In this document: in pieces, positions 12,753 to 63,993 of the stretch | Position numbering within the stretch: position 1 is the first letter of the stretch | How the letters are laid out: every line of letters starts with the position of its first letter | Assembly (NCBI RefSeq): GCF_002024165.1 | Contig: NZ_MWQN01000002.1 | Span: 372,001 to 436,000 of the forward strand | Reading direction: 5' to 3' | Length of the DNA: 64,000 bases | Origin: Embleya scabrispora | Lineage (GTDB): Bacteria; Actinomycetota; Actinomycetes; Streptomycetales; Streptomycetaceae | Notes under the pieces: generated by a model | What the model saw: only the letters and a program-made list of their open reading frames with translations | Told to the model about the DNA's origin: nothing | Database searches by the model: none | Translations under genes and position numbers: made by a program

Positions 12753-12837
12753 ACCCCGTAGGGATCCGTCCGGATCCCATCCGAGGAAGAACCCGTGCCA
12801 GGCATCGATCGACCCCCTTTCGGTCGATGCCTCCCGA

Positions 12838-12868: not shown

Positions 12869-12917
12869 CCTCCTCGTTCACGGATCGCGGGTCGCGGGTC
12901 GACCGCCGGGTCGCCGG

Positions 12918-14117
12918 TCAGGGGTTGTTGAACCGGACCTCCGGGTTCCCCGGCGTCGGGCGGTCGAGCAGCGGTCGCGGCAGGTGCCGCAGGTGCCGGT
13001 CGACGAAGGCACCGAGGTAGGCACGGGTCAGGTCCAGCCCCCGCGCCCCCGGCAGGGTGGTCGCCGATCCGCCGCCGGGCAGGCCGAGTCGGTCCAGGAG
13101 GACCGGGAAGTCGCTGAAGCTGAAGTGGGTGGCGTTCGCCACGGTCAACCACCGCTTCCAGCCGTCCAGTCGGGTCCACGCCCGGTCCCAGCTCGGGTCG
13201 TCGCCGCCCGGCCGATGGATCTCGTCGTCGGTGCCGAAGAGCAGGAACGGCCGGTTGCCCAGGCCGGTTTCGGGCACGGCGGAGTGGAAGGCGCCGTCCA
13301 TGTTCGCCCCCGCCCGAATCCGGGTGTCGCCGGCCATCGCCGCCGCCGCGCCCGCGCCGCCGATCGAATGGCCGGCCGCGCCGATCCGGTGCCGGTCGAT
13401 GAGGTCGGCGTACCGCCAGGCCGGGTCGGCCCCCGTGAGGCGATCCACCACGAACGACATGTCCCGCCCCCGACCGGAGGTGGCCGCGACCAGGTCCTCC
13501 TCGCTGCGCACCTTCGTACAGGCCACGCAGGTAAGCATCCGGCCGCCGGGGAACGCGGTACCCACCGACTCGTACGCGTGGTCGATCGCGGCCACCACGT
13601 AACCCCGACTCGCCAGATCCTCGGCGAGGCCGGTGAGGGTGAACACGGAATAGCCGAATCCCGGGGAGAGCACCACCAGCGGATACCGGCCGGGCGCGGG
13701 ACGGGCGTCGGCCCGCACGTCGGTGGCGGTCGTGCTCAACACCTCCGCGGGGAACACGTCCCCCATCCCGATGTCGGCCAACATCAGCCGCGCCTCGTCG
13801 ACCGTGGCGTACCGCGCGGGTGTGCCGGTCCCGCGGCGGGCGGGGTAGTACATCCCGACCATCAGTTCACGCGCGCCCGCCTCGGGCACCCACGGATCGG
13901 TCCGACTCGAGTCGACGAGGTGCAGGGATTGCCGGCCGACCCCGTAGGGCCCGGTCGGGTGCGGCAACGAGATGCGCGCTCCGCCCGGCACGGGATCGGC
14001 GGCGAGCACGGTCCGCGCGGGCGGGGGCGAGGCGGCGGCGGGCAGGGCCGACGCGATCGGCAACACCAGCGCGAGCGCCGGTGGCAGCAGTTTGCGAATC
14101 AGTGAGAATGCGGGCAT
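12918..14117 (-). CDS. Secreted alpha/beta hydrolase, PAF-acetylhydrolase-like
   Basis: A 399-residue exported hydrolase. The signal peptide (LIRKLLPPALALVLPIASAL, cut near AAA) precedes an alpha/beta hydrolase domain related to platelet-activating factor acetylhydrolase isoform II and dienelactone-hydrolase-like esterases. It has the oxyanion segment YPLVVLSPGFGYSVFTLTGL, the Ser elbow GHSIGGAG, a late acid in LFGTDDEIH, and the catalytic His in NATHFSFSDFP. Conserved MVGMYYPA and IDHAYES segments support the family. The start at 14117 was chosen because the signal peptide begins there. The GGGGT upstream is only a modest ribosome site. Substrate unknown; a lipid or polyester ester is plausible. 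Confidence 0.85.
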   Translation of the reverse strand: MPAFSLIRKLLPPALALVLPIASALPAAASPPPARTVLAADPVPGGARISLPHPTGPYGVGRQSLHLVDSSRTDPWVPEAGARELMVGMYYPARRGTGTPARYATVDEARLMLADIGMGDVFPAEVLSTTATDVRADARPAPGRYPLVVLSPGFGYSVFTLTGLAEDLASRGYVVAAIDHAYESVGTAFPGGRMLTCVACTKVRSEEDLVAATSGRGRDMSFVVDRLTGADPAWRYADLIDRHRIGAAGHSIGGAGAAAAMAGDTRIRAGANMDGAFHSAVPETGLGNRPFLLFGTDDEIHRPGGDDPSWDRAWTRLDGWKRWLTVANATHFSFSDFPVLLDRLGLPGGGSATTLPGARGLDLTRAYLGAFVDRHLRHLPRPLLDRPTPGNPEVRFNNP

Positions 14118-14390
14118 ACCCCGAAGACTGGACGCTGCTCCGCCGCGGCGCATCACCCGTCGGTCGCAGTCGGTGACCGCGCTCGCCTCCATCCTGCGGC
14201 GCACCGGTCCCCCGCGCGGTCGGATCGGCCGATCGGACCACTTGCGGGTGGTTCGGCGGAGTGCTTCGGCGTGGCGCGGGAGCAGGGTGCCGGTGTCGCG
14301 GGGGGCGCCGGCGGATAGTGGAACGCAGGCGATCCCCCGGGCATCCGGTCACGTCCGCGACCGATGCCGCCCCATCTGGGAGAAGGCTCC

Positions 14391-14876
14391 GTGTCCGACA
14401 CGCAGTTCAGCTACGTCATCTACATCCGCGCCACCCCCGAGGCGTTGTGGCGCGCACTCACCGAACGGACCGAGATCGAGCGCTGGTTCGACGGCTCCGG
14501 GCCGGAGTCGGACTGGGCCGTCGGCTCGACCGTGCGCTGGTCGATGTCACCCCGGATGGCCCCGCGAGACGCCGGTCAGGTCGTCCTCGCGGCCGAGCCG
14601 CCACGTCGGCTGGCGTACACCTGGCACAACTACGAGCCCGAGATCGCCGAGATGTTCGGGTGGAGTGCGGAGCAGTTGGCCGAGCGTCGGTTGGAGCCGG
14701 TGTCCAAGGTCGCGTTCGATCTGGTGCCGGTCGGCGAGGCGGTCGCGCTGCGCGTCCTGCACGACGGGTTCGCGCCCGGGTCGGAGATGTTGGCGAGCAT
14801 TCGTGAGGGGTGGCCGATGATCCTGTCCAACCTCAAGACGGTGTTGGAGACCGACGAACCGCTGCGGTGGGCATAG
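14391..14876 (+). CDS. SRPBCC/AHSA1-like domain protein
   Basis: A 161-residue protein with the START-like fold of the Aha1/CalC family: YVIYIRATPEALWRALTE at the N-terminus, IERWF, a central PPRRLAYTWHNYEPE strand, and a C-terminal helix GWPMILSNLKTVLET. Such proteins hold hydrophobic ligands or sequester reactive compounds. Streptomycete copies often sit next to ArsR regulators, and one lies about 1 kb away. The GTG start at 14391 has GGAGAAGG upstream. No residue indicates a specific ligand. Confidence 0.85.
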   Translation: MSDTQFSYVIYIRATPEALWRALTERTEIERWFDGSGPESDWAVGSTVRWSMSPRMAPRDAGQVVLAAEPPRRLAYTWHNYEPEIAEMFGWSAEQLAERRLEPVSKVAFDLVPVGEAVALRVLHDGFAPGSEMLASIREGWPMILSNLKTVLETDEPLRWA

Positions 14877-14897
14877 CGCGGGCCCGCGTTCCGGGGC

Positions 14898-15617
14898 TCA
14901 GGGCGCCGGGCGGCGGGCGTCCGGGGCGGTGAGGAAGGACCGGACCACCTCGGTGAACGCGTGCGGCTCGACGGCGTGCACCAGGTGGCCGACCGGGATG
15001 GTGACGACGCGCACGTCGGGGAGGCGGCGGCTCCATTCGGCGATGCGCTCCTGCGGGATGTGGCTGCCCGATCCGCCGCCGACGACGAGGGTGGGGGCGG
15101 TGATCAGGCCGAGGCGGTCCCACCAGACGGGGTCGGGGCTGTCGATCTGCTTGCGGATGGCGATCACCATGTCCCAGTCGAAGCCGAGTTCGCCCTCCGG
15201 CCGCACCGGCGCGACCGCCTCGCGCGGGACCGGTACGGAGACGTCCTCCAGGACCAATCGCCTTACTCGGTGCGGGTGTTCCTGGGCGAAGAGGTAGGCC
15301 ACGATGCCGCCCATCGAATGCCCGATCAGGTCCACCCGGGCCAGGTCCAGCGCATCCAGGAGGCCGAGGAGATCGTCCCGCATGAGTTCGAGCGAGTAGC
15401 TGCCGGGCCAGTCGCTGCGCCCGTGTCCGCGCAGTTCCACGACGTACACCCGCCAGGTGTCGGCCAGCCGGCGCGCTATGCGATCCCAGTCCCCGGCGTC
15501 CTCCCCGAGCGCGTGCAACAACACGACCGGCGGAGCGGAGGGATCCCCCCAGTGCTCGTGGACCAGCCGCACCCCGTCGACCTCGACCACGCCGACCACA
15601 CCACTCGATTCACCCAT
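14898..15617 (-). CDS. Alpha/beta hydrolase
   Basis: A 239-residue cytoplasmic alpha/beta hydrolase with a full triad pattern: VVLLHALGEDAGDWD (oxyanion loop), GHSMGG (Ser elbow near residue 98), the acid in the strand before the end, and the catalytic His in PVGHLVHAVEP. WRVYVVELRGHGRSDWPG is typical of the esterase/lactonase/peroxidase-like group. It is convergent with the SRPBCC gene and upstream of repetitive DNA. No cofactor or substrate can be assigned. Confidence 0.85.
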   Translation of the reverse strand: MGESSGVVGVVEVDGVRLVHEHWGDPSAPPVVLLHALGEDAGDWDRIARRLADTWRVYVVELRGHGRSDWPGSYSLELMRDDLLGLLDALDLARVDLIGHSMGGIVAYLFAQEHPHRVRRLVLEDVSVPVPREAVAPVRPEGELGFDWDMVIAIRKQIDSPDPVWWDRLGLITAPTLVVGGGSGSHIPQERIAEWSRRLPDVRVVTIPVGHLVHAVEPHAFTEVVRSFLTAPDARRPAP

Positions 15618-15639
15618 ATTCGGACCATACCGAGGACCC

Positions 15640-15943
15640 ACACGCCAACGGAACAGGGCGCGAGTCACGGGGCCCAACACAAAGCGGAAGGGCGCGCAGC
15701 GCAGAGGCGAGCGCGAAGCGGGCGGGCGCGGGGCGCGGGAGCGAATGCGGAGCGGGTGGGCGCACCGGCGCGGAGGCGTGACGGAACAGGGCGCGGGACG
15801 CGGGGCCGGGCACGAAGTGGGCGGGCGTGGGGCATCAAGGCGACGGAGCGGGCGGGCGAACCGGCGGCGTGGTGCGGGCGTGTGGGCTCGGGTGGGGCGG
15901 TGTCGAGGGGCCGGGGGCGCGGAGGCCGCGGCTCGGCCGTGAA
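15640..15943. repeat. Degenerate purine-rich repeat tract
   Basis: The gap between the alpha/beta hydrolase and the ArsR-like gene is built of variants of gcGGAACAGGGCGCG and gcGGGCGGGCGc units. Near-copies start at about 15648 and 15782 (CGGAACAGGGCGCG followed by a related stretch in each). The repetition runs into the 3' end of the ArsR-like gene, where GGCGCGGGGTCCTCGG and GCGGAGCCGGCGGGCG recur. No gene is supported here. Slippage expansion is a likely origin. Confidence 0.55.
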
Positions 15944-16354
15944 TCAGGGCCGGGGGCGTGGCTCGGCGGAGCCGGCAGGCGCGGGGTCCTCGGCCGCGGA
16001 GCCGGCGGGCGCGGGGTCCTCGGGCGCGGAGCCGGCGGGCGTGCGGCCTTCGAGGTGCAGGAGGTTGGTCAAAAGGCCCGGGAAGCGGGCGTCGAACTCT
16101 TCCGCGCGCAGACGCAGCGTCATGCCCGTGCCGGTGTTGCGCTGGACGATCAGGCCGGCTTCCCGAAGCACCTTCCAGTGATACGAGCGGGTGGACTTCG
16201 AGCCGGGTACGGACAGCGCCGTGCACGGCAGTTCGCGATCCGGGTCGGCGGCCAGTGTGACCACCACGCCGCGCCGGTGGTCGTCGGACAACGCGGCGAA
16301 GACCGCGCTCAGCGCCACCTCGTCGAGTGACGGGTGGGGCATCTGAACAGGCAT
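15944..16354 (-). CDS. ArsR/HTH_20-type winged-helix regulator
   Basis: A 136-residue DNA-binding protein. LDEVALSAVFAALSDDHRRG opens an ArsR-like winged helix, with recognition helix STRSYHWKVLREAGLI and a wing RNTGTGMTLRL. There are no metal-binding cysteines of the classical ArsR/SmtB kind. The last ~35 residues are a repetitive tail (PAGSAPEDPAPAGSAAEDP and variants), matching direct DNA repeats that continue beyond the gene. The start at 16354 has GAGGAG about 11 bases upstream. It is divergent from a beta-hydroxyacid dehydrogenase gene, which it probably controls. Confidence 0.82.
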   Translation of the reverse strand: MPVQMPHPSLDEVALSAVFAALSDDHRRGVVVTLAADPDRELPCTALSVPGSKSTRSYHWKVLREAGLIVQRNTGTGMTLRLRAEEFDARFPGLLTNLLHLEGRTPAGSAPEDPAPAGSAAEDPAPAGSAEPRPRP

Positions 16355-16423
16355 CCCGAATCCCACTCCTCGATCCGATCCCGGTTGCCGGCGTGTGCCG
16401 TCGGTGTCTACGGTACCTGGGTA

Positions 16424-16435
16424 CGAAGATTTTCG
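16424..16435. promoter_or_regulatory. Candidate operator between divergent ArsR-like and dehydrogenase genes
   Basis: CGAAGATTTTCG carries 4-bp inverted arms in a short AT-richer segment of the 105-base divergent promoter, 25 bases before the dehydrogenase start. Assigned from position and symmetry only. Confidence 0.35.
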
Positions 16436-16459
16436 AACCACCCCATGCGGAGTGCACTC

Positions 16460-17338
16460 ATGACGAACACCCGTCCGACCGTCGCCGTACTGGGCACCGG
16501 CATCATCGGTGCCGCCCTCGCCCGCAACCTCGCGCGCGCCGGCTTCGCCGTCCGGGCCTGGAATCGCAGTCCGGAGAAGGCGGCGGCGCTGGTGGCCGAC
16601 GGGGTGATCGCGGCCGAGACCCCGGCCGACGCGGTCACCGGCGCCGACTTCGTGCTCACCGCGCTCAACGACGGCCCGCGTGTGCTCGACGCGATGCGCG
16701 CGGCGGTCCCGGGGCTGCGCAAGGGCACGACGTGGGTGCAGGTCAGCACGGTCGGCGTGGATGCGTTCGACGAGCTGGCCGAATTCGCCCGCGCCCGGGG
16801 CCTGTTCCTGGTGGACGCCCCGGTCCAGGGCACCCGGGGACCGGCCGAGCAGGGGAAGCTGGTGATCCTCGCGGCGGGCGAGCCGGGGATTCGGGACCGG
16901 GTGCAGCCGCTGTTCGACACGATCGGGCAGCGCACCATGTGGGTGGGCGAGGACGGCACCTCGGGCGCCGCGAGCCGGCTCAAGCTCGTCCTGAACACCT
17001 GGGTCCTGGCGCTGACCCACGGCGTGGGCGAGACGCTGGCCCTGGCCAAGGGCCTGGACGTGGACCCGAAGCTGGTCTTCGACGCGATCACCGGCGGTCC
17101 GCTGGACAACGCGTACTTCCACCTGAAGGGCGCCGCCATCCTCGCCGACGAGTACACCCCGTCCTTCACCGTGGACAACGCGGAGAAGGACGCCCGGCTG
17201 GTCGTGCAGGCCGCGAAGCGCGCGGGCGTCCGCGTGGACGTCGTCGCGGCCGGCGCCGAACGCCTGCACCGCGCCTCCGAACAGGGCCACGGCGACAAGG
17301 ACATGGCCGCCACGTATCTCGCCTCCTTCGAGGACTGA
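16460..17338 (+). CDS. NAD(P)-dependent beta-hydroxyacid dehydrogenase (3-hydroxyisobutyrate dehydrogenase-like)
   Basis: A 292-residue member of the 6-phosphogluconate/3-hydroxyisobutyrate dehydrogenase family. The N-terminal Rossmann motif is VAVLGTGIIGAALARNLARA, with WNRSPEKA after beta2 suggesting NADPH preference. The substrate segment FLVDAPVQGTRGPAEQGKLV occupies the place of DAPVSGG. The catalytic Lys region (SRLKLVLNTW, Lys near 174) and the all-alpha C-terminal domain are present. The start at 16460 has GGAG 7 bases upstream and is preferred over an in-frame ATG at 16445. Substrate uncertain: 3-hydroxyisobutyrate, tartronate semialdehyde and imines (imine reductases share the fold) are all possible. 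Confidence 0.85.
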   Translation: MTNTRPTVAVLGTGIIGAALARNLARAGFAVRAWNRSPEKAAALVADGVIAAETPADAVTGADFVLTALNDGPRVLDAMRAAVPGLRKGTTWVQVSTVGVDAFDELAEFARARGLFLVDAPVQGTRGPAEQGKLVILAAGEPGIRDRVQPLFDTIGQRTMWVGEDGTSGAASRLKLVLNTWVLALTHGVGETLALAKGLDVDPKLVFDAITGGPLDNAYFHLKGAAILADEYTPSFTVDNAEKDARLVVQAAKRAGVRVDVVAAGAERLHRASEQGHGDKDMAATYLASFED

Positions 17339-51963: not shown

Positions 51964-54900
51964 TCAGTACACGTCCCGCACGTAGCGCCGCTCCCCGACC
52001 ATCTGCCGTACGTACGCGTCCGCTTCGTCCTCGGACCGCCCTCCGTGGGCGATCACGATCTCGCGCAGTGCCCGGTCGACGTCCTTGGCCATCCGCCCCG
52101 CGTCGCCGCAGACGTAGACGTGTGCGCCGCGCGACAACCAGTCCCACATGCGCGGGCCGTGTTCGCGCATCCGGTCCTGGACGTAGATCTTGGCCCGCTG
52201 GTCGCGGGAGAACGCCAGGTCGAGCCGATCCAGCAGCCCGACGCGGCGGAACTCGGCGAGTTCGTCCCGGTAGTAGAAGTCGGTGGCCCGCCGCTGCTCG
52301 CCGAAGAACAGCCAGTTCGGCCCGGTGTGACCACGCGCCTGCCGATCGGCCAGGAAGCCCGGGAACGGCGCGACGCCCGTACCGGGACCGATCATCACGG
52401 CGGGCGCGGTCGGATCCGTCGGCGGCCGGAAGTGCGGGGAGCGGCGCACGAATACCGGCACCGGCCCGTCTGCGCCCAGCGTCGCGAGATGCCCGGAGCA
52501 CACCCCCTGCCGCTCGGCACCGGCCTCGTTGCGATAGCGCACCACGGACACGGTGATCCGCACCTCGCCGGGGTGCGCGAGCGGGCTGGAGGAGATCGAG
52601 TACAGCCGCGGCTCCAGCCGCTTGAGCACGCCGGCCCACTCGACCGGATCCGCGCGCACCCCGAACTCGCCGATCACGTCCACCGCCTGGCGGCCCCAGC
52701 TCCACCGCGCGAGTTCGTCCCGGTGGCCGGCCCGCAGCAGCCGCTCCAGGTCCCGGTCGTGGGTGCGCTCCGCGACGAACCGGAGCAGTTCGGGGGTGAT
52801 CCGGGCGATCTCGAACCGGCTCCGCAGCGCCTCGCCGAGCGGGAGTTCGCCCAGGTCCGGCACGGGGATCGGGGTCGCCGGGTCCAGGCCGGTGGCGGCC
52901 AGCCATTCGGCCACCGCCTCCGGGCGGTTGACCGGCCATACCCCGAGCGCGTCCCCGGGCTCGTAGTCCAGGTCGCCGTGTGCGCCGCCGCGCGTATCGA
53001 AGGTGAACTGCCGTACCTCCTTGGCGGATCCGGGCAGGCCGAGCAGTCGATCGCCGATCAGCAGGGCGGGGAAGGGGGTCGCCTTCGTATAGCCCACGGC
53101 GGCCGGCGGCGACGGTGCCCCGGCCACCGGGCCGGGCAGGCGGGTCGCGGCAACGGCCGTCGTCGTTGCGGTCTTTGCCGTCATCGCGGTTGTCGCGGTC
53201 GTCGTGCTCGCGTCCGATGTCGGCCTCGTGCCGAGCGCGGCCAGTACCCCGTCCAGCCAGCTCGCGGCGGTTCGGTCGTAGTCGGGTTCGCAGTCGGCGC
53301 GTGGCGCGATCCGGGTGCCGCCGAGTTCGGCCAGCCGCTCGTCCAGGCGTCGGCCGTGGCCGCAGAAGTCGGCGTAGCCCGAGTCGCCCAGGGCCAATAC
53401 GGCGTAGCGCAGCCCGTTCACCTCCGGCCGCCCGGCTCCGGTCAGCGCCGCCCAGAACCCGGCCCCGTTGTCGGGCGCCTCGCCGTCGCCGAAGGTGCTG
53501 GTGATCAGGAGCACGGGTATCCCGCTGGGCAGCGTGTCCGGGCTGTGCTCGGTCATCTCGCGCACGACCGGTCGCCGCCCGGCCTCGGCCAGGCGGCCGG
53601 CGATCGAGCCGGCCAGCTCGGCGGCGTTGCCGGTCTGCGAGGCCCACAGCACCAACACGTCGCCATCGTCCGGGATTTCGACCACCGGATCGGCGACCAC
53701 GACTGATCCGGCCATCGCGGCGGGCGTCTCGATGGTTCGGGAGAACAGGCCCGCCAGGAGCCCGTTGACCCACGGCACCCGGGCCGGGGCGATCGGGGCC
53801 CGGTCGGGCAGCACCGGGACGCCGGGTGCCCGGGTCGTCGCGGATCCGGCCGCGCCCGCGAGGAACCCCGCCAGGTAGCGCCGCTCCTCGTCCGTGTACA
53901 CCGGCGGCGCGAGGTCGCCGAGGCCGAGCAGCGTGGCCGCGGCGCGGATGTCGGGGTCGGTCGGGGCCGACGGCGGTGCGTCGGTGGCCGGGTCGGGTCC
54001 CGACGCCGGGGTCGAGGGCGCGGGCGGGTCGGGGCGGACCGGGCCCGCCACCTTGGTCAACGCCACCGCGCAGGACTTGAATTCGGGTTGGAAGGAGATC
54101 GGGTCGACCGCGTCGTTCGTGACCGCGTTGATCCCGAGGAACGCGCCGAACCGGTCGTTCCAGTGGAAGGGCACGAAGCAGTTGCCCGGTCGGACCCGGT
54201 CGGTCGGCCGGGCGGGCAACACCACGCGCCCGCGTCGGGAGGACACTTCGACCGCGTCGCCCGCCTCGATGCCCAACTCCAGCGCGTCCTCGGGATGGAT
54301 CTCCACGAACGGCGCCGGATCGAGGCGGTTGAGCGCGTCGATTTTCCCGGTCTTGGTCATGGTGTGCCACTGGTGCTGCACGCGGCCGGTGTTGAGCACC
54401 ATCGGGTAGCCCCGGTCGGGTAGTTCGGCGGGCGGCAGATGCGGCCGGGCGAAGAACACCGCCCGCCCGCTCGCGGTCGGGAAGCGCGGTCGGCGGCGGG
54501 TGTGCGCCGCGTCGTCCGGTTCCCCGGCATCCGCCGGCAGGTATCGAATCGGGTTGCGGTCCGGCCCGTCCGGGGCCGAACTCGGCCACTGCACCGGTGT
54601 CTCGCGCAGCCGCTCGTGGCTCACCCCGCTCAGGTCGTAGCCGGTACTCGGGTTCGGGGCCCGCCGGAGTTCGTCGAACACCTCCTCGGCACTGGCGTAG
54701 TCGAAGGCGTCGGCGAAGCCCATCTCGCTCGCGACGCGGGCGATGATCAGCCAGTCGGGCAGTGCCTCGCCGACCGGGTCGACGGCCTGCCGGGACAGCG
54801 TGAGGTTGCGTTCGGAGTTGACCATGACGCCCTCGGTCTCGGCCCACATCGCGGCGGGCAGCACCACATCGGCGTACGCGTTGGTCTCGGTGTCGGCGAA

Positions 54901-56238
54901 CACGTCCTGGGCGACCACGAACTCGGCCGCCCGCAGGCCCGCGATCACCGCCTCCCGGTTGGCCACCGAGGCGACCGGGTTGGTGCAGATGATCCAGCAC
55001 GCCTTGACCTCGCCCGAGGCCATCCGGGCGAACAGGTCCACCGTGCCGCCGCCCGCCTCCGCCCGCAGCGTCCCGGCGGGCACCTCCCACAACCGCTCGA
55101 CGAACTCCCGGTCCTCGGCCACCAGCACCGAGCGCTGGCCGGGCAACCCGGGCCCCATGTAGCCCATTTCCCGACCGCCCATCGCGTTGGGCTGTCCGGT
55201 CAGCGAGAACGGCCCGCTGCCCGGTCGGCAGATCGCGCCGGTGGCGAGATGCAGGTTGATCAGCGCGTTGGTGTTCCAGGTGCCGTGGGTGCTCTGGTTG
55301 AGCCCCATCGTCCAGCAGCTGGTCCACTCCCCCGCCGCGCCGATCCACCGCGCGGCCCGCCTGATGTCCTGCTCGGCCAGGCCGGTCAGCTCGGCGACCC
55401 GGTCCGGCGGGTAGTCCCGCAGGAACTCCGGCATCGTGTCCCAGCCCTCGGTGCACTCGGCGATGAACGCGGAATCGGTGTCGCCGTTCTCCACGAGCAG
55501 GTGCAACAGGCCGTTCAGCAGCGCCAGATCGGTGCCGGGACGGATCCGAAGGAACAGGTCGGCCTTGGCGGCGGTGGCGGTGCGGCGCGGGTCGACCACG
55601 ATCAGCTTGGCGCCCGCCCGGACCCGGTCCATCATGCGCAGGAACAGGATCGGGTGGCAGTCGGCCATGTTGGCGCCGATCACGAGGAAGACGTCGGCGT
55701 GTTCGAAGTCCTGGTACGAGCCGGGCGGCCCGTCCGCGCCGAGCGAGAGTTTGTAGCCGCTTGCGGCACTGGCCATGCACAACCGCGAGTTCGACTCGAT
55801 CCGGTTGGTGCCGACGAAGCCCTTGGCCAGCTTGGTGACCAGATACTGGGCCTCCAGGGTGAGTTGGCCGGAGACGTAGAAGGACAGCGCGTCCGGGCCG
55901 TGCGCGTCCAGGATCTCGCGCAACCGCCGGGCGGTCGTGCCGATCGCCGCGTCCACTCCGGTCGGCGTCGGCGCCGCGTCGCGCTCGGCGCGGACCAGTG
56001 CGGTGGTCAACCGGCCCGGGGCGGCGAGCAGTTCGGCGCTGGTGGCACCCTTCGTACACAGCCGGCCCCGGTTCGTCGGGTGCGCCCGGTCGCCGCGTGC
56101 CTTGAGCACGGTGCGTCGGCCGGTCGCGGAGTCGACGGCGATGTCGAGGAGCATGCCGCAGCCGACCCCGCAGTACGAGCAGACGGTCCGTACGGTGTCG
56201 TCGGCCGCCTTCGGCTCCGATCCCGACACGGGCGACAC
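51964..56238 (-). CDS. nasA: Assimilatory nitrate reductase fused to CysJ-like flavoprotein
   Basis: A 1424-residue bifunctional protein. Residues 1-~720 are a molybdopterin-bis-MGD oxidoreductase with an N-terminal [4Fe-4S] motif ([10 protein letters not shown]: Cys20, Cys23, Cys27, then GRLCTKG), as in NasA/NarB. A Pro-rich linker with a BFD-like segment (~770-830) leads to a flavodoxin domain ([20 protein letters not shown], about 860-1000) and a CysJ-type FAD/NADPH reductase ([57 protein letters not shown]). So electrons pass from NAD(P)H through FAD and FMN to the Mo centre in one chain, replacing separate NasC-type partners. GTG start. No nitrite reductase gene is in view. Confidence 0.93.
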
Positions 56239-56698
56239 CCCTTTCCCGGTATTGTCTGCGACTTTCGATACATGGCGATTCGCTCGGTTTCGCGCCCGCG
56301 CACACCGACCGCGCGGCGCGGGTGCGGTCGGTGCGGGCGAGCCCCGTGTCCGGGACGCTAAAGAGCGGCGGTTTCGTGAACGTCACACGCCCCCGCGTCC
56401 GGGGTTACGTCGACCGCACAGCCGCCCGGGTGCCACAGTGAGGCGGGCCCTGGTCGAGGCGCGGCAGGCCGCCGGGCCTTCGAGGCGACGCGGTTTCGTC
56501 GCCCTGGGAAGCATTTTGACTACCTAGCGCATCGATCACTCGTGGTCAATTCACGAGTTCTCGTGACAATACGGCGCACTCGGTCGCCCGCGAGGATGGC
56601 GCGGAAACGACGGTGCCGAGTGGGACGGTCGAGGCGAGGACGCCGATCGGGTCGGTCATCGCGAACGTGCCGACGTGGTCGGCGGTGGGGACGGTGGC
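56239..56698. other. Divergent promoter region of nitrate reductase and RiPP genes
   Basis: About 460 bases with no supported gene. The stretch 56510-56575 is AT-richer and holds an inverted repeat ACTCGTG-N7-CACGAGT at 56538-56558 followed by a partial third copy (TCTCGTGA). It probably contains promoters for both directions. Confidence 0.5.
56538..56558. promoter_or_regulatory. Inverted-repeat operator candidate before the RiPP genes
   Basis: ACTCGTG-GTCAATT-CACGAGT, perfect 7-bp arms, 160 bases upstream of the elimination-domain gene. A related half-site CTCGTGA follows. Cognate regulator not identified. Confidence 0.5.
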
Positions 56699-57715
56699 AT
56701 GGGCTCGGCCGAGATGGGGCACGATCGGGGACCGGCCGGTGAGGTGTGTGTCGGTGCCCGGTCGGTGCCGCTGGGCGTGCTCCTGGACGACTGCCTCCGG
56801 GACGTCCGGAAGGCCGGCGCGGATCCGGCCGACGGCGAATACGCGGCGGCCCGCCGGGCGTTCCTGGCCGCCGGGCTGGCCGCGCTCGATCGGGCCGCCG
56901 ACCGTCGGGTGCGGCGGACCAGGTGGATCCAGGTCGGAGTGACCCCCGTGGCCGACGCCGAGGGCCGACTGTACGGGCAGTTGGCGGAATCGGCCCGCGA
57001 GCTGCTGGCCGGCGGCGTCGCCACGGACTTCTTCTATCTGCACAAACCGCCGGGGGTCAGGATCAGATTCGCCGTGCACGGCGACGCGGCGACGGCCGAG
57101 CGACTGCGCGAGATCGTGTCCGCGCGGGCCGACGACTGGCTGCGCGAGCATGTGGTGCGGCATCGGGAACCGGGCGGATACGAGCCGGAGGCGCACCTGT
57201 TCGGCGGTGAGGTCTCGATGCGCAGCGTGCACCGCCTGTTCACCGCCGACTCGCTGGCCTGGCTGCGCTTCCTGGCCGACGACGCCCGCGCGTTGCCCGC
57301 GTGGGCCTACTCGCTGATCCTGCTCCGCGACGTGCTCGACGGCGTCGGGGTGGCGGGTTGGGAGGACCGGGACGTGTGGGACCGGGTGCGGCGCGGCACC
57401 GGGCGCGGCCTGCCGGCGGACGTACCGGACGCGTGGCGGGAGACGGCGGTCCGGATCCGGGCGCACTGGCGCGCGATCGGGGCACTGCGCGACGCGCTGC
57501 CGGAACCGCTGCGCGCGGCGGCCGTACGGCATCGAGTCGAGGTCGCGGCCGAGGCGGAGCGGTGGACGCGCGGCTACTTCGCCACGGAGGAGGCCGAGGT
57601 GGGACCGAGACAGGCACTCGCGTACTACACGGTGTTCCACTGGAATCGCGGCCGACTGGCGCTGCCGACCCAGTGCCTGCTCGCGGACGCGCTCGCCGGA
57701 CGGACCCGCTCGTGA
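56699..57715 (+). CDS. LanB C-terminal elimination-domain protein (SpaB_C, thiopeptide-type)
   Basis: A 338-residue protein of the lantibiotic dehydratase C-terminal (glutamate elimination) family, here stand-alone as in thiopeptide and split class I systems. Diagnostic parts are RTRWIQVGVTPVADAEGRLY, DFFYLHKPPGVRIRFAVHGD, YEPEAHLFGGEVSMRSVHRLF and the terminal YYTVFHWNRGRLALP. It removes glutamate from glutamylated Ser/Thr to give dehydroamino acids, working with a separate glutamylation subunit, encoded on the other strand at 58879-61142. The stop overlaps the LanC start (GTGA). Start uncertain: 56675, 56699 and 56714 are in frame. Confidence 0.9.
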   Translation: MGSAEMGHDRGPAGEVCVGARSVPLGVLLDDCLRDVRKAGADPADGEYAAARRAFLAAGLAALDRAADRRVRRTRWIQVGVTPVADAEGRLYGQLAESARELLAGGVATDFFYLHKPPGVRIRFAVHGDAATAERLREIVSARADDWLREHVVRHREPGGYEPEAHLFGGEVSMRSVHRLFTADSLAWLRFLADDARALPAWAYSLILLRDVLDGVGVAGWEDRDVWDRVRRGTGRGLPADVPDAWRETAVRIRAHWRAIGALRDALPEPLRAAAVRHRVEVAAEAERWTRGYFATEEAEVGPRQALAYYTVFHWNRGRLALPTQCLLADALAGRTRS

Positions 57716-58989
57716 CGCCGGGGCCCGAGGCCGCCACCCGCACCCCCGCCAGCACCCGGGGCGCCGACACGTCCGCCGACGCCGCCGTACGCGCCCTCGC
57801 GCGCTCCTTCCTGGCGACCTACGCGCGCCGCGGACGCGGTGGCGGGCCGTGGGCCGAGCCGGGGCCGGTGGTGCTCGCCGTACTGCTCGCCCGCACCGGC
57901 GACGCCGAGGACACCCTCGTCGCCCGCGCGGCGGTGCGCCGCTGGGCCCCGGACGCGCTCGCTCGCCGGGTGGGGCATTCGGGCCTGCACGACGGCGGGT
58001 TGGCCGGGATGGTGGTCGGGCTGCGCCTGGGGGCGACTCTGCATCCGCCGCTGGCCTCGGTCGCCGAACGGGTCCGGGTACGCCTCGCCGCCCGCTGCGC
58101 GCGCGACCCGTGGCGGCGGACCGGAGTCGGCTTCGCCGACTACGACCTGGTCAGCGGACCGGCGGGGATACTCCTCGGGCTCGGCGCGGGCGGCGCGGAC
58201 GTCGGCGTCCCGGGCGGCTCGGGGGCCGGGGTCGGCGCGCTCGTCGCGCACCTGGCCGGCCTGTGCGCCGAGCCGGGGCTGCGCCGGCTGCGGATCGCCG
58301 AGTTCTCCGGGCAGCCCTGGCCCGCGCGCTTCCTGGGCCGGGTCAATCTGGGCTTGGCACACGGCGCGCCGGGGGTACTGCTCGCGTTGACCGCGGCGGC
58401 GCGGGCGGCCGGGGATCGTGCGGACGAGATCCTGGAGCCGCTGGCCGCGGCGGCGGGGTGGGTCGCCGGGGCGGCCGTTCCGGACCCGAACGGGAATGCG
58501 ATGTGGGGTCCGGTCGCGGGCGGGCCCGGCGCGGCCGGTGGGGCCGGCGGGGCCGAACGCGCCGCCGGTCATCGCGAGGGCTGGTGCTATGGGACTCCGG
58601 GGGTGTCGTGGGCGCTGTGGGAGGCCGCACAGGTACTCGGCGACGCGGAGGTGCGGCGCCGCGCGGAGGATGGGTTCCGCTCGTCGGCGCGCCGATTCCC
58701 CCTGGAGCGCCGCCTGTTCGACGGTGGCGTGGCCGACCGCCTCGGCGTGTGCCACGGCGCGGCGGGCGTACTCGCCATCGCCGACGCCTTCGCCCGCCAC
58801 GCGGGCCTGCCGGAGGCGATCACCCTGCGCACCCGCCTGACCGGCGAGATCCGCGCCGAACTCCTGTCCTTCCCCCGCCTATTCGCCCCGGCCGACACCA
58901 CCCTCCTCGGGCTCGCCGGCACCCTGGCCGTCCTGCTCACGCCGACCTCGGGCGACCGGGGCTGGCTGCGGTGCCTGGGGCTGCGGTAA
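57712..58989 (+). CDS. lanC: LanC-like lanthionine cyclase
   Basis: A 425-residue alpha/alpha-barrel protein of the LanC family, which adds cysteine thiols to dehydroamino acids to form (methyl)lanthionine rings. The zinc ligands are visible: Cys292 in REGWCYGTPG and Cys347-His348 in GVCHGAAGVLAI. GLAHGAPGVLLALTAAAR supplies the first barrel motif. GTG start overlapping the elimination-domain stop, so the two are co-translated. The 3' end overlaps the opposing LanB gene by 111 bases, tail to tail. Only two Cys lie in the candidate core peptide. Confidence 0.9.
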   Translation: MTPGPEAATRTPASTRGADTSADAAVRALARSFLATYARRGRGGGPWAEPGPVVLAVLLARTGDAEDTLVARAAVRRWAPDALARRVGHSGLHDGGLAGMVVGLRLGATLHPPLASVAERVRVRLAARCARDPWRRTGVGFADYDLVSGPAGILLGLGAGGADVGVPGGSGAGVGALVAHLAGLCAEPGLRRLRIAEFSGQPWPARFLGRVNLGLAHGAPGVLLALTAAARAAGDRADEILEPLAAAAGWVAGAAVPDPNGNAMWGPVAGGPGAAGGAGGAERAAGHREGWCYGTPGVSWALWEAAQVLGDAEVRRRAEDGFRSSARRFPLERRLFDGGVADRLGVCHGAAGVLAIADAFARHAGLPEAITLRTRLTGEIRAELLSFPRLFAPADTTLLGLAGTLAVLLTPTSGDRGWLRCLGLR

Positions 58990-60528
58990 CGCCCGATGGG
59001 ATGCGGGTCGGCGTGGTGGGGGTTCGGACCGGTGTCGGGGGTGGATCCAGTCGACGGCGAGTTCGGCGGCGTAGTGCCGGCCCGCCTGGTCGACGATCGG
59101 CCATTCCTCGGGTGGGCCCGGGGTTTCGGTCAGTTCCAGGCAAGGGGTGTCGGCGGGGAGACGGTCCAGGAGGGTGCGCAGGACCAGGGGGCTGTCGGTG
59201 CGGACGAGCAGTTCCGGCGCGCCGAGGGCGATGCGTACGTAGACCAGGTCCGGGACGCCGAGTTCGTCCAGCGTGCGGCGCCAGGCCAGGTAGCGTTCGG
59301 CGGCGCTCCCGACAACGAACGGGCCGGCCTCGATCCGCCACCGCTTCGGCGCGGTCACCGTGCCGTCGGCGCAGGTCACCCTCGGGTACACGACGGCGCA
59401 GGTGTCGTCGGCGAGCCGCACCCGGGCCGGCACCGGCTCATGACGCCTGGTCAGATCCCACCCCTGCGCCCCCGCCAGGGCCAGCAGCAGCCGGCCGCGC
59501 GGGTCGCCGCGCCCGATCACCGCGCAGGAGCCGTACACGGGTACCCGCCACGCCGCCTCCCCCGCCCGCCCCAACCACGGCCGCAGCCCGCCGTCCACGG
59601 TCACCGTCAATCCCGCCGGCCCCTCGCCGCCCAGGTCCCGGGGATCGGCGACCTCGTCCGTCAGCGGTGGATGCAGCGCCGCGTCGGGATTGGCCGCGTC
59701 CCGCCCGACCACCTCGATCGCCTCGACACCGTCGGGCAACGCGCGCCGCAACCACGCGGCGGCACTGGGCGGCGGGTCGGGGTGGGCCGGGCCCGAGCCC
59801 TCGGCGGCCTCCGCGAGCAGTGCGTGGTGCAGGCCGGCGAACGGCATCAGATGGGGCAGCCCACCGCCGAGCCAGACCGCGCCGGCGACGGTCGGCCGCA
59901 CCAACACGCTGCCCCACGGCCCGGGACCGCGAGCGCGCCCCGCCGTCGACGGCGCACCGTCGGCCAACCGCCCCAGTAGCCGCACCCGTTCCCGCTCGGC
60001 CGTCCCGTCGCGGCCGTGCCGGGCGAGCAGCAGCCCGATCGCCCGTCGAGTGCCCTCGCGCAGTTCGTCGCACCAGTACACCCGCCAAGGCAACCGCACG
60101 GAGAACACCAGCAGATCACCTTCGGGCCGCCCGGGTACACCGGCCCACTCCCACATCCGATGAATCTCCGCCTCCGCCGCCGCCACCGACTCCGCGACCT
60201 CCATGGCCGACGCCGAGTGGTAGCGCGCCCCGAGTCGGTCACAGGCGGACCGCAACCGGCGCAGCCCGCTCTCCCACACCGCCGCGTCCGCCGCGTTCAA
60301 CGACCGACCCGCCACCTCCAGGGCCGTCCACGCGCACGCGGCCCGCAACGGCAACGCGGGCGCCGGTCGCCCCGCGTAGCCGGGCCCGTCCCCGAGCCGA
60401 TCGAGCACCCTCCCGAACGGCACCACGGAAGGGCACACCCGAAGCACCCCCGCCGCACCCTCCACCACCAGCCCCGGGCCCGCCCGCCCGGGCCCGCCGC
60501 CCTCCGGCGTCACCCGCACCGATGCCAC
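58879..60528 (-). CDS. lanB: LanB glutamylation subunit, second part (after frameshift)
   Basis: About 550 residues matching the middle and C-terminal part of the lantibiotic dehydratase N-terminal (tRNA-Glu-dependent glutamylation) domain: VRVTPEGGGPGRAGPGLVVE, the long central part WEWAGVPGRPEGDLLVFSVR, and PKRWRIEAGPFVVGSAAERYLAWRR. The first ~230 residues are encoded by the preceding frame (60510-61142). The join would be PTPAGAWAG/VASVRV and needs one extra base. The GTG at 60528 is the first in this frame but is not a convincing true start. The C-terminal ~60 residues (Pro/Arg/Gln/Gly-rich) are antisense to lanC and probably result from a lost stop. Confidence 0.75.
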   Translation of the reverse strand: MASVRVTPEGGGPGRAGPGLVVEGAAGVLRVCPSVVPFGRVLDRLGDGPGYAGRPAPALPLRAACAWTALEVAGRSLNAADAAVWESGLRRLRSACDRLGARYHSASAMEVAESVAAAEAEIHRMWEWAGVPGRPEGDLLVFSVRLPWRVYWCDELREGTRRAIGLLLARHGRDGTAERERVRLLGRLADGAPSTAGRARGPGPWGSVLVRPTVAGAVWLGGGLPHLMPFAGLHHALLAEAAEGSGPAHPDPPPSAAAWLRRALPDGVEAIEVVGRDAANPDAALHPPLTDEVADPRDLGGEGPAGLTVTVDGGLRPWLGRAGEAAWRVPVYGSCAVIGRGDPRGRLLLALAGAQGWDLTRRHEPVPARVRLADDTCAVVYPRVTCADGTVTAPKRWRIEAGPFVVGSAAERYLAWRRTLDELGVPDLVYVRIALGAPELLVRTDSPLVLRTLLDRLPADTPCLELTETPGPPEEWPIVDQAGRHYAAELAVDWIHPRHRSEPPPRRPASHRALPQPQAPQPAPVARGRREQDGQGAGEPEEGGVGRGE

Positions 60529-61142
60529 CCCGCCCACGCGCCCGCCGGAGTCGGCCGGCCGGCCGCGCGCAGGAGGTAGCGCAGGACCGTGTCCTCGGTA
60601 CGGCGGCGGCGCTTGTCGGCGGGGGCGGACTCCGGCGCGCCGGCCCAGTGACGGGCGACCTCCCGATGGGCGAGGACCAGGGCCCTGGCGAAGCGGGGTT
60701 CGTGGGTGAGCCGCCACAGAGCGTGCCGTTGGCGGGCCAGTTCGGCGGCGTACTCGGCCTCGAACGCCGCGCGCGACCGCGCCAGTTCGGTGCGATCGGC
60801 GGCATCGGCCGCCAGGAGCCCAGTCAGTTCGGGATCCCCGATCACGGGCAGCGCACCCCAGGGGGCGTCGCCGCGACCCACGGCCCGGCGCACTGCCAGG
60901 AGGCGGTGGCGCGCGGCGGGGTCGGCCACGTGCGGAACGGCCGCGTGCAGGCGGGCGAGCAGCGTGGGTCGGCGGGCCGCCAGTGCGGCGACGCGGGAGA
61001 CGATCCCGGCGGCGCGTACGGTCAACCCGGGCGCGGCGAACGTGTCCAGTGTCTCCACCGGCCACGCCGCCGCGCGCAGCAGCGCCGTGGGGGCCACCTC
61101 GACCGGCCACTCGGGCCCGTCGTCATCGGCCGGAGCCGTCAC
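60510..61142 (-). CDS. lanB: LanB glutamylation subunit, first part
   Basis: About 210 residues with the typical N-terminal LanB sequence: WPVETLDTFAAPGLTVRAAG, ALWRLTHEPRFARALVLAHR and KRRRRTEDTVLRYLLRAAGRPTPAGAWAG, where normally TP.G.fAGV continues in frame. Instead TGA at 60510 ends it while the continuation is in the next frame. The GTG start at 61142 follows GGGGG by 6 bases, 75 bases after the precursor gene. Together the two parts make a full-length split-type glutamylation subunit of about 760 residues. Frameshift real, programmed or a sequencing error cannot be told here. Confidence 0.72.
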   Translation of the reverse strand: MTAPADDDGPEWPVEVAPTALLRAAAWPVETLDTFAAPGLTVRAAGIVSRVAALAARRPTLLARLHAAVPHVADPAARHRLLAVRRAVGRGDAPWGALPVIGDPELTGLLAADAADRTELARSRAAFEAEYAAELARQRHALWRLTHEPRFARALVLAHREVARHWAGAPESAPADKRRRRTEDTVLRYLLRAAGRPTPAGAWAGWHRCG

Positions 61143-61216
61143 CCGTGCCCCCGGATAGGCGTCGAGCCGGGCGTCACCGGCAGGCCGGTGACGCCCGGGA
61201 TGCGGTGTCTCTTCCG

Positions 61217-61495
61217 CTACCAGCAACACATGATGGTCGACGGCGGGTCCGCCGCCTCGGCCATCTCGCCGACGTCGATCTTCGGCATCTCGCCCTCGTA
61301 CCGGACGAACCCGTTCGAGCCGCCCAACGGGCTCGCCTCCGCGGCGGCCAACGTGGCCTCCGCGTAGACCAGTTCCTCACCCGTGACCCGGCACGCCTCC
61401 AGGAGTTCGTCCCGGAGGAAGTACACCGCTCCTTCCTTGCCACGCAGTAGCGTTCCCCGGGTGTGTGCGGTCGGCTGGTCCAACTCTTCGGACAT
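61217..61495 (-). CDS. Candidate lanthipeptide precursor peptide
   Basis: A 92-residue peptide in the position of a RiPP precursor, between a tailoring oxygenase and the LanB gene. The N-terminal 80 residues form an acidic, helix-prone leader (GAVYFLRDELLEACRVTGEE, then LVYAEATLAAAEASPLGGSN and EMPKIDVGEMAEAA). KIDVGEM may play the role of the FxLD-type recognition motif. The C-terminus AADPPSTIMCCW has Ser86 and Thr87 for dehydration, Cys90 and Cys91 for ring closure, and a terminal Trp92. Start at 61495 with AGGGAAG upstream. No known lanthipeptide family has this ending, to my knowledge. Core boundary is inferred. Confidence 0.75.
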   Translation of the reverse strand: MSEELDQPTAHTRGTLLRGKEGAVYFLRDELLEACRVTGEELVYAEATLAAAEASPLGGSNGFVRYEGEMPKIDVGEMAEAADPPSTIMCCW

Positions 61496-61577
61496 GTGTG
61501 CCACTTCCCTTCCCTGTTCGACGACCCGGCCCTGATGCGCGGGTCCACCGATGTGCGTCGGCGCGATCGCGCCGAGG

Positions 61578-62486
61578 TCAGCGCAGCTTGAGCTGCTTGA
61601 AGTGCCGTTTGCGCCCACCCGGTACCGGCCGGATCCGGCTGCGGCCGTGGAAGAAGGCCCAGTTGTCGAAGATCACCACCGTGCCGGCGGTCCAGTGCAC
61701 GCCGAACATGGCGGCCGGGTCGTACATCGCGTCCAGCAGGTCCTGGATCGCGCCGCGCACCGTCTCGGATCCGACCGCCTCCGCCGACCCGGTGTAGCGC
61801 CAGCGCAGCACCTCGGCGCCGAAGTCGCGGAAGCAGAACACCGGCAGCCCGTCGCGCCGGGAGAACATCGGCGGCCCGGTCGGGAAGTCGTGGCAGTTCG
61901 TGGCCGCCAGCACGTCCAGTTCGAGCGCGGACAATTTCGCCTTCACCGCCGCCATGGGTACGAACACCGTCTGCCCGCCGCGGTCGCGTTCGGGTGGCTC
62001 GACGCACATCAGGGCGATCAGGCGGGGCTGCTTGGACAGCGGATGCACGGCGATCTCGGTGTGCAGGTTCAGGTGGTTCGCGGCGATCAGCGCCAGGTCG
62101 TAGCGGGTGGTCCCGGGTTGGTCGTGGCGCAGGTTGAGCACGGCGCGCCGCTCCACGTAGGGCCGCAGTTCGGCGTTGATCTCGGTCTCCATCACGGCGC
62201 CGAGCGCCGCGCCGAGGGCGAGGAATTCGGTGGTGCTCGGGCAACGGTCGAAGTCGAGCCGGACGATGCCGCGGCGGGCCAGCGCGGTGCGCACCAGCGG
62301 TACGGTGCGCGCGATCGTGTCGGCGACCATCCGCAGCCGGGGCAGTCCGTCCGGTTCCGGCAACCAGCGCGCGCCGTCGAGCAGGATCTCGCGGTGCGCG
62401 ACGTGCGGGTGACAGGGCTGTTCGACGAACGAACCGGTGAGCGTCGCGGGCCGGTCGTCGAGGCGAGGTACGAGGGCGGCGGGCAT
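61578..62486 (-). CDS. TauD/asparagine-oxygenase-like Fe(II)/2-oxoglutarate dioxygenase
   Basis: A 302-residue dioxygenase. The 2-His-1-carboxylate facial triad is His142-x-Glu144 in LNLHTEIAVHP with distal His280 in FDNWAFFHGRSRI, and Arg284 is placed to bind 2-oxoglutarate. HxE rather than HxD is the pattern of the CAS/AsnO/VioC hydroxylases of amino acids in peptides and antibiotics. Between the MBL-fold gene and the precursor gene (55 and 82 base gaps) it is the likely tailoring hydroxylase, acting on the precursor or on a free amino acid. GGAGG before the ATG. Confidence 0.88.
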   Translation of the reverse strand: MPAALVPRLDDRPATLTGSFVEQPCHPHVAHREILLDGARWLPEPDGLPRLRMVADTIARTVPLVRTALARRGIVRLDFDRCPSTTEFLALGAALGAVMETEINAELRPYVERRAVLNLRHDQPGTTRYDLALIAANHLNLHTEIAVHPLSKQPRLIALMCVEPPERDRGGQTVFVPMAAVKAKLSALELDVLAATNCHDFPTGPPMFSRRDGLPVFCFRDFGAEVLRWRYTGSAEAVGSETVRGAIQDLLDAMYDPAAMFGVHWTAGTVVIFDNWAFFHGRSRIRPVPGGRKRHFKQLKLR

Positions 62487-62541
62487 GGTGTCCTCCCGAA
62501 TCGGGGCGGCGGGGGCGAAGTCGGGGTCGGCGGCGGGCGGA

Positions 62542-63993
62542 TCAGTCCCGGGACAGCGGCGCGGCGCCCGCGACGATCGGTTCCCGGGCGTCGTACGGCC
62601 AGCGGTGACCGGCCCGCCGGATCGGCACCGGGGCCCCCGCCACCTCGTGGACCGCGTCGCCCGGCCGCAGCAGCAGTACGTCGACGGCGGAGCCGAGCAG
62701 GCCGCCCGGCATCTCCGTGCGCCGCCGGGCCGCGGTCGCGACACGTTCGGGACAGGGGTCGAACCCGTGGGCCTCGCCGCCGGTTTCGTCCAGTCGGGGA
62801 CCGAGTCCCGCCCGCCAGTACCACGGCGCGCCGCCGTCGGCGTACGGCACGAGCAGCCGGGCGCCCCAGCGTTCGGCGATGTCGACCGCCTCGTCCGGGG
62901 TGGTCATCAGCCGTTGTCGGCAGTTCCACTGGTCGGGCGGCACGAACGCCAGGTAGCGCGCGACCGAGGTGAACAGCAGCTGCACCGGGTACATCAGCCA
63001 GCCCCGGTATCCGCAGAACACCGCGTCGACCGGGCCGAGTCGGGTGCGCGCCTGGGCGGCGACCTCGCGCACCTCCCCCTGCGCGTCGCGCCCGGAGTCG
63101 GCCAGGAAGGCCGCGGATCCGGTCGGGGTGCGGACCAGGTAGGTGTTGCCGTGATTGCGGATGCCCGGGTGCAACACCGGTCCGTCGGTGGGCTGTTCGC
63201 CGTGGAAGGGCAGTGCGTGCACCTCGATGTCGCCGATCGTGGTGCGCTGCCACCAGTCGAGTTCGACGACGTGCTCGAAGCCGAGTTCCCGGATCCGGCG
63301 GGCGAGGTCGACGGTCAGTACGGTCTCCCGCTCCACGCGCGGTACCACCACGCGGGTGTCGGGCGGCAGCCGCAACAGGGAGGCGGGCGCGAAGTGGTCG
63401 GGGTGGGAGTGGGTGATCAGGACCGCGTCGACGCGGCCGAGGTCGGCGGGCCGCAGCGGCTGGTAGTCGGGCGGATGGGCGCGGTCGTGCGCGAAGAACA
63501 GCGGATCGACCACGACGGCGCTGCGCCGCGAACGCACCACGACCGTGTTGTGCCCGACGAACTCCAGCTCGCCGCAGGCGGGTTCGGCCTGCGGATCGGC
63601 CACGGCCGGCAGCACGAACCCCTCGTCGCGCAGCACGTCCAGGAACGTGGCGGCGCGCGGATCACCGCCCGCGACCACGCTCGACCCGGCCGCCGTCTCC
63701 TCGACCGGCGCGCTCAGCGCGGCGATCAGCGTGTGCACCCACGGCCAGTCGTGGTCGCCGAACTCGAACCGACGGGCCCGACCGTCCGCGGCGGCGCTGA
63801 CGGTGAGCCCGCGCGGGCGGGCCCGGGCCGGGTCGGGGAAGAGCAGGTCGGCCCGCAACTCCCAGGCCGGGCCGATCGTTCGGCCCGGACGCGCGGTCCG
63901 CCGGAAGGCGGGCTCGGCGACCGCGCGCCGGAGCAGTTCGGGGCCCATCCGGACCAGGTCGTCGAATCCGTGCCGCCGTACGTGCCGCAGCAC
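62542..63993 (-). CDS. MBL-fold metallo-hydrolase with ~150-residue N-terminal extension
   Basis: At least 483 residues. The metallo-beta-lactamase fold starts near 140 with ELEFVGHNTVVVRSRRSAVV. The metal motif LITHSHPDHF gives His195, His197, Asp199 and His200. ALPFHGEQPTDG and NHGNTYLVRTPTGSAAFLADSG follow as in UlaG/CMP-NeuAc-hydroxylase-like members. The N-terminal ~140 residues are of no family I recognise. It is first in the leftward RiPP unit. Its GTG start lies 7 bases from the window end and the frame remains open, so the gene may be longer. It may act as a peptidase, lactonase or thioester hydrolase in maturation, unassigned. Confidence 0.82.
   Translation of the reverse strand: MLRHVRRHGFDDLVRMGPELLRRAVAEPAFRRTARPGRTIGPAWELRADLLFPDPARARPRGLTVSAAADGRARRFEFGDHDWPWVHTLIAALSAPVEETAAGSSVVAGGDPRAATFLDVLRDEGFVLPAVADPQAEPACGELEFVGHNTVVVRSRRSAVVVDPLFFAHDRAHPPDYQPLRPADLGRVDAVLITHSHPDHFAPASLLRLPPDTRVVVPRVERETVLTVDLARRIRELGFEHVVELDWWQRTTIGDIEVHALPFHGEQPTDGPVLHPGIRNHGNTYLVRTPTGSAAFLADSGRDAQGEVREVAAQARTRLGPVDAVFCGYRGWLMYPVQLLFTSVARYLAFVPPDQWNCRQRLMTTPDEAVDIAERWGARLLVPYADGGAPWYWRAGLGPRLDETGGEAHGFDPCPERVATAARRRTEMPGGLLGSAVDVLLLRPGDAVHEVAGAPVPIRRAGHRWPYDAREPIVAGAAPLSRD

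Follow-up and report, generated by a model that had tools for sequence, protein, structure and literature searches.

Does a protein of the metallo-beta-lactamase (MBL) fold that resembles the diiron oxygenase CmlA take part in the tailoring of a ribosomal peptide? This question is raised by a compact gene cluster in a 64,000-nucleotide stretch of the Embleya scabrispora genome (G000:C2:372001-436000; genome size 10.96 Mb), the whole of which is termed the window here. The cluster extends from 56675 to 64113, its MBL gene running 113 bases beyond the right end of the window, and comprises genes for a stand-alone LanB elimination protein (E, a glutamyl lyase), a LanC cyclase, a small LanB with the glutamylation domain, a candidate precursor peptide, a TauD-type Fe(II)/2-oxoglutarate (2OG) oxygenase and the MBL-fold protein (Table 1). 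On the minus strand the order of transcription is MBL, TauD, the 92-residue precursor and the small LanB. All six genes had been claimed in an initial annotation of the window, and open reading frames (ORFs) together with Pfam and NCBIfam matches place each of them at the claimed site and on the claimed strand. Gene content, homology, motifs and recurrence beside LanB or LanM carry the explanation to which we give about even confidence: the product is a class I lanthipeptide whose LanB is split and which two iron oxygenases modify, and this strain may have ceased to make it.

The MBL-fold protein and its relatives

The comparison of a profile of three MBL relatives with all sequences of the Protein Data Bank (PDB) gave CmlA (4jo0, 1.1e-19) and 8a90 (6.4e-18) as the best matches, ahead of NAPE-PLD (1.5e-9). 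With a six-row profile the values were 4.5e-23 for 8a90, 7.5e-22 for CmlA and 9.6e-11 for NAPE-PLD. The PDB title of 8a90 is 'Non-heme diiron monooxygenase', and we infer that this entry is FrsH. CmlA of the chloramphenicol pathway and FrsH of the FR900359 pathway are diiron beta-hydroxylases of the MBL fold with about 530 residues, like the window protein. Residues H235, H237, D239, H240, E306 and D339 of the latter are invariant in all six rows (five genomes) and align with H307, H309, D311, H312, E379 and D405 of the CmlA chain; subtraction of two from these chain positions gives what we take to be the CmlA ligand numbers. The nearest PDB sequences and the six aligned ligand positions make a diiron oxygenase of the CmlA type, most likely a hydroxylase, more probable than the hydrolase named in the initial annotation.

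Relatives of this protein were sought in genome samples that overlap one another, with few candidates scored per genome. They were found in two of the 121 Streptomycetaceae genomes, both of the genus of the window, in 2/392 Streptomyces genomes and in two of the 386 relatives of genome G510, both already known; among 178 genomes of the class and 396 of the phylum only the window's own copy was recovered, and the genome contig collection yielded the G003 contig only. The plasmid collection contained 3 matching records among 72,556 with the window protein as query and 5 with the G510 copy. A LanB or LanM gene adjoins the MBL gene in five of the seven genomes opened, a count in which two of the five (Streptomyces sp. 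ADI95-16 and G477) are near relatives, while of the other two G003 cannot be judged and Burkholderia arboris appears to have a non-ribosomal peptide synthetase (NRPS) setting.

The ADI95-16 plasmid carries MBL, LanC, a stand-alone E, a full LanB and GrrM, and the same kind of cluster is present in G477, where the genes were named by homology. In G510, a Streptomyces genome, two CmlA-like MBL genes occur with a small LanB, E, YcaO, TfuA, JmjC_2, Cupin_8 and DUF6445. On plasmid pPg_03 of Pseudanabaena galeata (2412-17261), LanM, a Nif11-type precursor, two 2OG-FeII genes and JmjC_2 accompany a CmlA-like MBL, which is also nearest to CmlA (5.6e-10). Next to the MBL gene, a second iron oxygenase is backed by Pfam or by homology in the window and in G003, G510 and Pseudanabaena; in ADI95-16, G477 and B. 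arboris it is suggested by weak matches or ORF reading only. For the possible second oxygenase of ADI95-16 and G477 the matches were WelO5 (0.17) and MicC (0.012), the PDB search of the first being uninformative.

Several side observations were made on these clusters. The ADI95-16 gene that precedes MBL (L025 13904-14932), the one with the weak WelO5 match, displays a putative HxD...H motif, and its protein is extended at the N-terminus by a charged stretch. The G510 cluster (C1:562000-581900, stretch positions about 2442-15627) appears more unusual than that of the window, with a luciferase-like gene by reading and a 120-residue precursor candidate containing GTAMCWHGG; one G510 MBL (stretch positions 10933-12747) is extended at its C-terminus, and the added part weakly resembles the putative peptide maturation system protein TIGR04500 (0.0027). 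The Nif11-type precursor of Pseudanabaena has Trp at its end, and weaker MBL matches were seen in Gloeocapsa and Nostoc.

Precursor, lyase, cyclase and TauD-type oxygenase

The 92-residue ORF ending in STIMCCW, already proposed in the initial annotation, lies on the same strand as TauD and LanB and between them, and its C-terminal sequence is ...KIDVGEMAEAADPPSTIMCCW. GC content at the three codon positions over 61150-61450 is 0.52, 0.66 and 0.90, like that of the coding frames of the local DNA, and the ORF is therefore more than a chance one. Its ATG is preceded by a purine-rich stretch, and at its 3' end the ORF overlaps the GTG of LanB. The Ser/Thr and Cys residues expected of a core are present in STIMCCW; no family match was obtained in Pfam, NCBIfam or PHROGs.

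A T-x-M-C motif is present in all four precursor candidates of LanB-type clusters, i.e. STIMCCW (window), RYTTMCTTF (ADI95-16), RYTTMCGTF (G477) and GTAMCWHGG (G510), which amount to three lineages only, since ADI95-16 and G477 are near relatives. In these more distant clusters the motif recurs inside the peptide and the CCW end does not. Shuffled peptides contain the motif in 0.8% (window), 0.9% (ADI95-16), 0.6% (G477) and 0.3% (G510) of cases, and it occurs in 2 of the 491 mechanical ORFs of 60-130 residues from five stretches, one of which is the G510 candidate; the precursor ORFs of the window and of ADI95-16 exceed this size band when taken from the first start codon. The recurrence is suggestive only, because the motif was picked after the window peptide was known, the G510 candidate was picked by eye, and MAFFT fails to align the motif in the window row. 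The ratio of non-synonymous to synonymous substitution rates (dN/dS) between the ADI95-16 and G477 candidates is 0.37. The Pseudanabaena precursor has neither T-x-M-C nor Cys.

LanC retains the motifs LAHG (215), WCYG (291) and CHG (347), which presumably supply the Zn ligands and the catalytic His. His and Zn ligands are also mentioned in PMC9011353. The earlier proposal of a split LanB with LanC and a peptide containing Ser, Thr and Cys is supported.

In E, the start codon of which is uncertain, K124 is invariant in all seven rows and aligns with the Tyr of MibB, and L175 aligns with the Arg of the MibB ERYGG motif, in a weak alignment (E-value 0.014). The SapT lyase SptBb has Lys in place of the NisB Tyr and Leu in place of the NisB Arg, and its product contains d-allo-L-methyllanthionine (PMC9011353). 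As far as this weak alignment goes, the window E would thus carry both residues of an SptBb-type lyase, and these two shared residues raise the possibility of a d-allo-L-methyllanthionine ring. The second mark is not common to all relatives, as Gln stands there in ADI95-16 and G477 and Lys in G510. Relatives of E were found in 3 records of the plasmid collection; in Streptomyces sp. NBC_00158 and S. hirsutus no MBL gene is annotated near the E-family gene in the stretch inspected.

The TauD-type enzyme retains HTE plus a distal His (the HxE variant), in agreement with its earlier description as an HxE-type Fe(II)/2OG dioxygenase. The solved sequence nearest to it is PseP (8k3h, 3.5e-33), on which no paper was recognised in the searches made. 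Its relatives were present in 2/61 genomes (the window's own and the partial gene of G003) and in two plasmid records (Nonomuraea and Rhodococcus), and none was confirmed in the genome contig collection. Since the plasmid-borne relatives adjoin genes for pyridoxal phosphate (PLP)-dependent and AMP-binding proteins, TauD alone is no marker of the cluster.

In the proposed pathway, the small LanB would attach glutamate to Ser/Thr of the precursor, and the stand-alone E would eliminate it to leave dehydroalanine or dehydrobutyrine. LanC would then form a thioether to a Cys that lies within or close to the C-terminal STIMCCW, giving a ring perhaps of d-allo-L-methyllanthionine configuration. The TauD-type enzyme and the CmlA-type MBL would both oxidise the peptide, the latter most likely as a hydroxylase. 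We infer the order of these steps, the substrate of each oxygenase, the cleavage site and the product.

Table 1. Features of the cluster in window coordinates, with the profile matches or other signals that define them
Feature	Position	Strand	Size	Evidence
E, stand-alone LanB elimination protein (glutamyl lyase)	56675-57715	+	346 aa	PF14028 1.8e-17, TIGR03891 1.4e-26
LanC cyclase	57712-58989	+	425 aa	PF05147 1.8e-14, part of profile covered
Small LanB, remainder, different frame	58879-60534	-		open frame, codon-phase GC, G510 homology
Small LanB (glutamylation domain), N-terminal part	60510-61229	-		PF04738 1.2e-7
Candidate precursor peptide, C-terminus STIMCCW	61217-61495	-	92 aa	codon-phase GC; position
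Codons for C-terminal STIMCCW, proposed core region	61220-61240	-		read from sequence
TauD-type Fe(II)/2OG oxygenase	61578-62486	-	302 aa from ATG 62486	PF02668 1.4e-20; HTE...H
CmlA-like MBL-fold protein	62542-64113 (window part to 64000)	-	523 aa	PF12706 2.4e-16 on in-window part

A thiopeptide class was considered and rejected, as a YcaO cyclodehydratase and a pyridine synthase are absent among the cluster genes scanned with Pfam and NCBIfam. To the left of the cluster, a 1424-residue ORF (51964-56238, minus strand) reads, from the ORF alone, as a nitrate-reductase-like fusion of a molybdopterin oxidoreductase with a flavoprotein reductase. Eight LanC-like matches in the host genome point to several lanthipeptide-type loci.

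State of the cluster and rival explanations

The LanB glutamylation subunit of the initial annotation held as to family and strand (PF04738) and failed as a single open frame. Its N-terminal part runs into a stop and the rest is found in a different frame, within the ORF 58879-61110. The frameshift lies near 60519-60534, where the codon-phase GC switches frame as well, and beyond it LanB can be read without a stop for about 550 codons, up to an overlap with the end of LanC. The small LanB of G510 is unbroken across this point and homologous on both sides of it (46% over 102 residues, 1e-14; 23% over 326 residues, 2e-5); as a query it found no match in the plasmid collection. PF04738 matches the first part weakly (30.7 bits, cut-off 28), as it does the two parts joined through X (40.2 bits); the remainder alone has no Pfam match, and the N-terminal part has none among solved structures. 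An RxxxRxTP-type motif is common to the five LanB rows, save for RTQP in G510. Because of the frameshift the strain perhaps no longer makes the product, sequencing error aside, and such an error may be the cause.

The history of the cluster was followed in related genomes. Both flanks of the cluster have matches in the congener G001, of 91-94% save for an outer piece of 481 bases (84%), and G001 lacks the stretch corresponding to 57741 to 64189, i.e. LanC to MBL. Since the DNA on both flanks, including that to the right, exists in G001 without the cluster, the cluster ends at MBL, and the rightward continuation thought possible in the initial annotation falls away. G001 retains E (90% amino-acid identity), and a 53-base piece at the deletion point aligns with the start of LanC (1.9e-6); the weight of this piece rests on its position, because chance matches of equal strength arose in the same search. 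As E and the LanC piece are both kept, the ancestor is likely to have had the cluster, and the LanC-to-MBL block was probably lost in G001. Between the window and G001 the dN/dS of E is 0.53, which suggests relaxed constraint, and that of two flanking genes is 0.20 and 0.33. The MBL gene has a dN/dS of 0.24 against G003, the only near relative of the cluster, in which MBL (77% in alignment) and the start of TauD stand on an 8,929-base contig that stops inside TauD. The rest of the cluster was not found in the 1650-contig G003 assembly (no precursor, E at best 34%, short DNA matches only), due either to an assembly gap or to real absence. No E, MBL, TauD or precursor was found in G002.

The broken LanB frame, the weak PF04738 matches, the dN/dS of E and the missing G003 parts weigh against a lanthipeptide tailored by two iron oxygenases, as do several further points. 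No full homologue of the exact cluster was found, and the precursor has homologues in 1/61 genomes, the window's own, and none in the plasmid collection. The strong-phase ORFs of 53-92 kb include no recognised protease or transporter. The alignment of E and LanB to solved structures is weak, as seen with MibB. The two-row structure model of the MBL-fold protein has a pLDDT of 48, and no His after D339 is invariant in the MBL rows, which leaves one CmlA ligand unaccounted for. On plasmid pla_2 of B. arboris (11626-13972) a CmlA-like MBL is followed by a cupin-like gene in what reads, from the ORFs, as an NRPS setting. That the cluster is a decaying remnant, with LanB dead, E drifting and no product, is quite possible if short of probable, and would be compatible with the same explanation for the ancestral cluster; besides the frameshift, the loss in G001, the E ratio and the missing G003 parts speak for decay, possibly in this strain, but the frame is still open far beyond the shift, the remaining five genes are intact, and the shift itself may be a sequencing error.

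An ordinary metal hydrolase (e.g. a leader peptidase, an esterase or a resistance protein), which would leave TauD as the sole oxidiser of the peptide, is unlikely: although Pfam and NCBIfam group the MBL with metal-dependent hydrolases, NAPE-PLD and UPF0173 hydrolases also match it and the seventh ligand is not invariant, CmlA and 8a90 surpass any hydrolase by at least 10 orders of magnitude over a longer match, and the Glu aligned to CmlA chain position 379 is conserved in 6/6 rows. Somewhat less likely still is that the 92-residue ORF is no precursor, or that the oxygenases belong to another pathway merely adjoining the LanB genes. The lack of ORF homologues and the PLP and AMP-binding, rather than LanB, neighbours of the Nonomuraea and Rhodococcus TauD relatives would fit this, but the codon-phase signal, the overlap with LanB, the same-strand place of the ORF, the T-x-M-C of other clusters and the recurrence of MBL with LanB argue against it. 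Pearlin systems (Tgl, Amm, Bha) share with the window a small LanB without elimination domain and a scaffold-like precursor, here with a conserved-looking long N-terminal part and a C-terminal Trp, and the lack of a recognised transporter also agrees with them. In such a pathway the small LanB would be a peptide aminoacyl-tRNA ligase (PEARL; marker residues Asp542 and Arg803 in TglB, PMC10979984) that extends a scaffold peptide at the C-terminus by an amino acid taken from aminoacyl-tRNA, where the oxygenases would act before a small product is released. This appears quite improbable, as the window, unlike the pearlin clusters, has a separate glutamyl lyase and a LanC with metal motifs, which the described pearlin chemistry does not need, and T-x-M-C is internal in the related precursor candidates.

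Relation to known systems and meaning

Split-LanB lanthipeptides are already known, namely SapT and pinensin (PMC9011353 and PMC7268733). Elimination proteins in addition to a full LanB are also described in PMC7268733, as is the occurrence of alpha-ketoglutarate oxygenases and YcaO in a part of the lanthipeptide clusters. Like the window, SapT (spt, Streptomyces; PMC9011353) has LanB as two proteins plus LanC; in contrast to the window, the text of PMC9011353 names neither an MBL nor a dioxygenase, and the SapT precursor has S-G-V/I/L/F-x-C repeats in place of T-x-M-C. Full-LanB class I clusters with an extra E (NBC_00158, ADI95-16) have a stand-alone E that belongs to the family of the window E (43% identical in NBC_00158), but their LanB is full-length, and NBC_00158 has no annotated MBL within the 30 kb inspected. 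CmlA and FrsH beta-hydroxylate amino acids while these are attached to an NRPS carrier (PMC7794379), whereas the window MBL adjoins LanB, and the strong-phase ORFs of 53-92 kb include no recognised NRPS gene.

The term beta-lactamase does not occur in the text of PMC9011353, PMC7268733, PMC10979984 or PMC10676384, nor does metallo-beta-lactamase in PMC7470986, though the literature search had counted one occurrence. In the literature searched, which includes little subscription literature, no paper was recognised as describing a lanthipeptide family with these genes, and within that scope the initial statement that the combination matches no known lanthipeptide family stands. Judged from sequence, the cluster is real and rare, and what is new in it would be the CmlA-like oxygenase within a split-LanB class I cluster.

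To our knowledge, all characterised diiron MBL-fold hydroxylases act in non-ribosomal pathways. A wider proposal, which we put forward tentatively and consider rather doubtful, is that the CmlA-related MBL diiron family may be a general tailoring enzyme of ribosomal peptides. In two phyla it would accompany class I (LanB) and class II (LanM) lanthipeptide and YcaO/TfuA machinery, in most cases together with a second iron oxygenase, its LanB branch serving a shared T-x-M-C core to give an oxidised small thioether ring, maybe with d-allo-L-methyllanthionine. The rarity of the family, seen in the Streptomyces sample, may explain the absence of a description in the literature searched. If the proposal is true, an oxygen-activating enzyme family now labelled 'MBL fold hydrolase' would be added to ribosomal peptide tailoring, and one could test directly whether such an enzyme hydroxylates a genetically encoded peptide.

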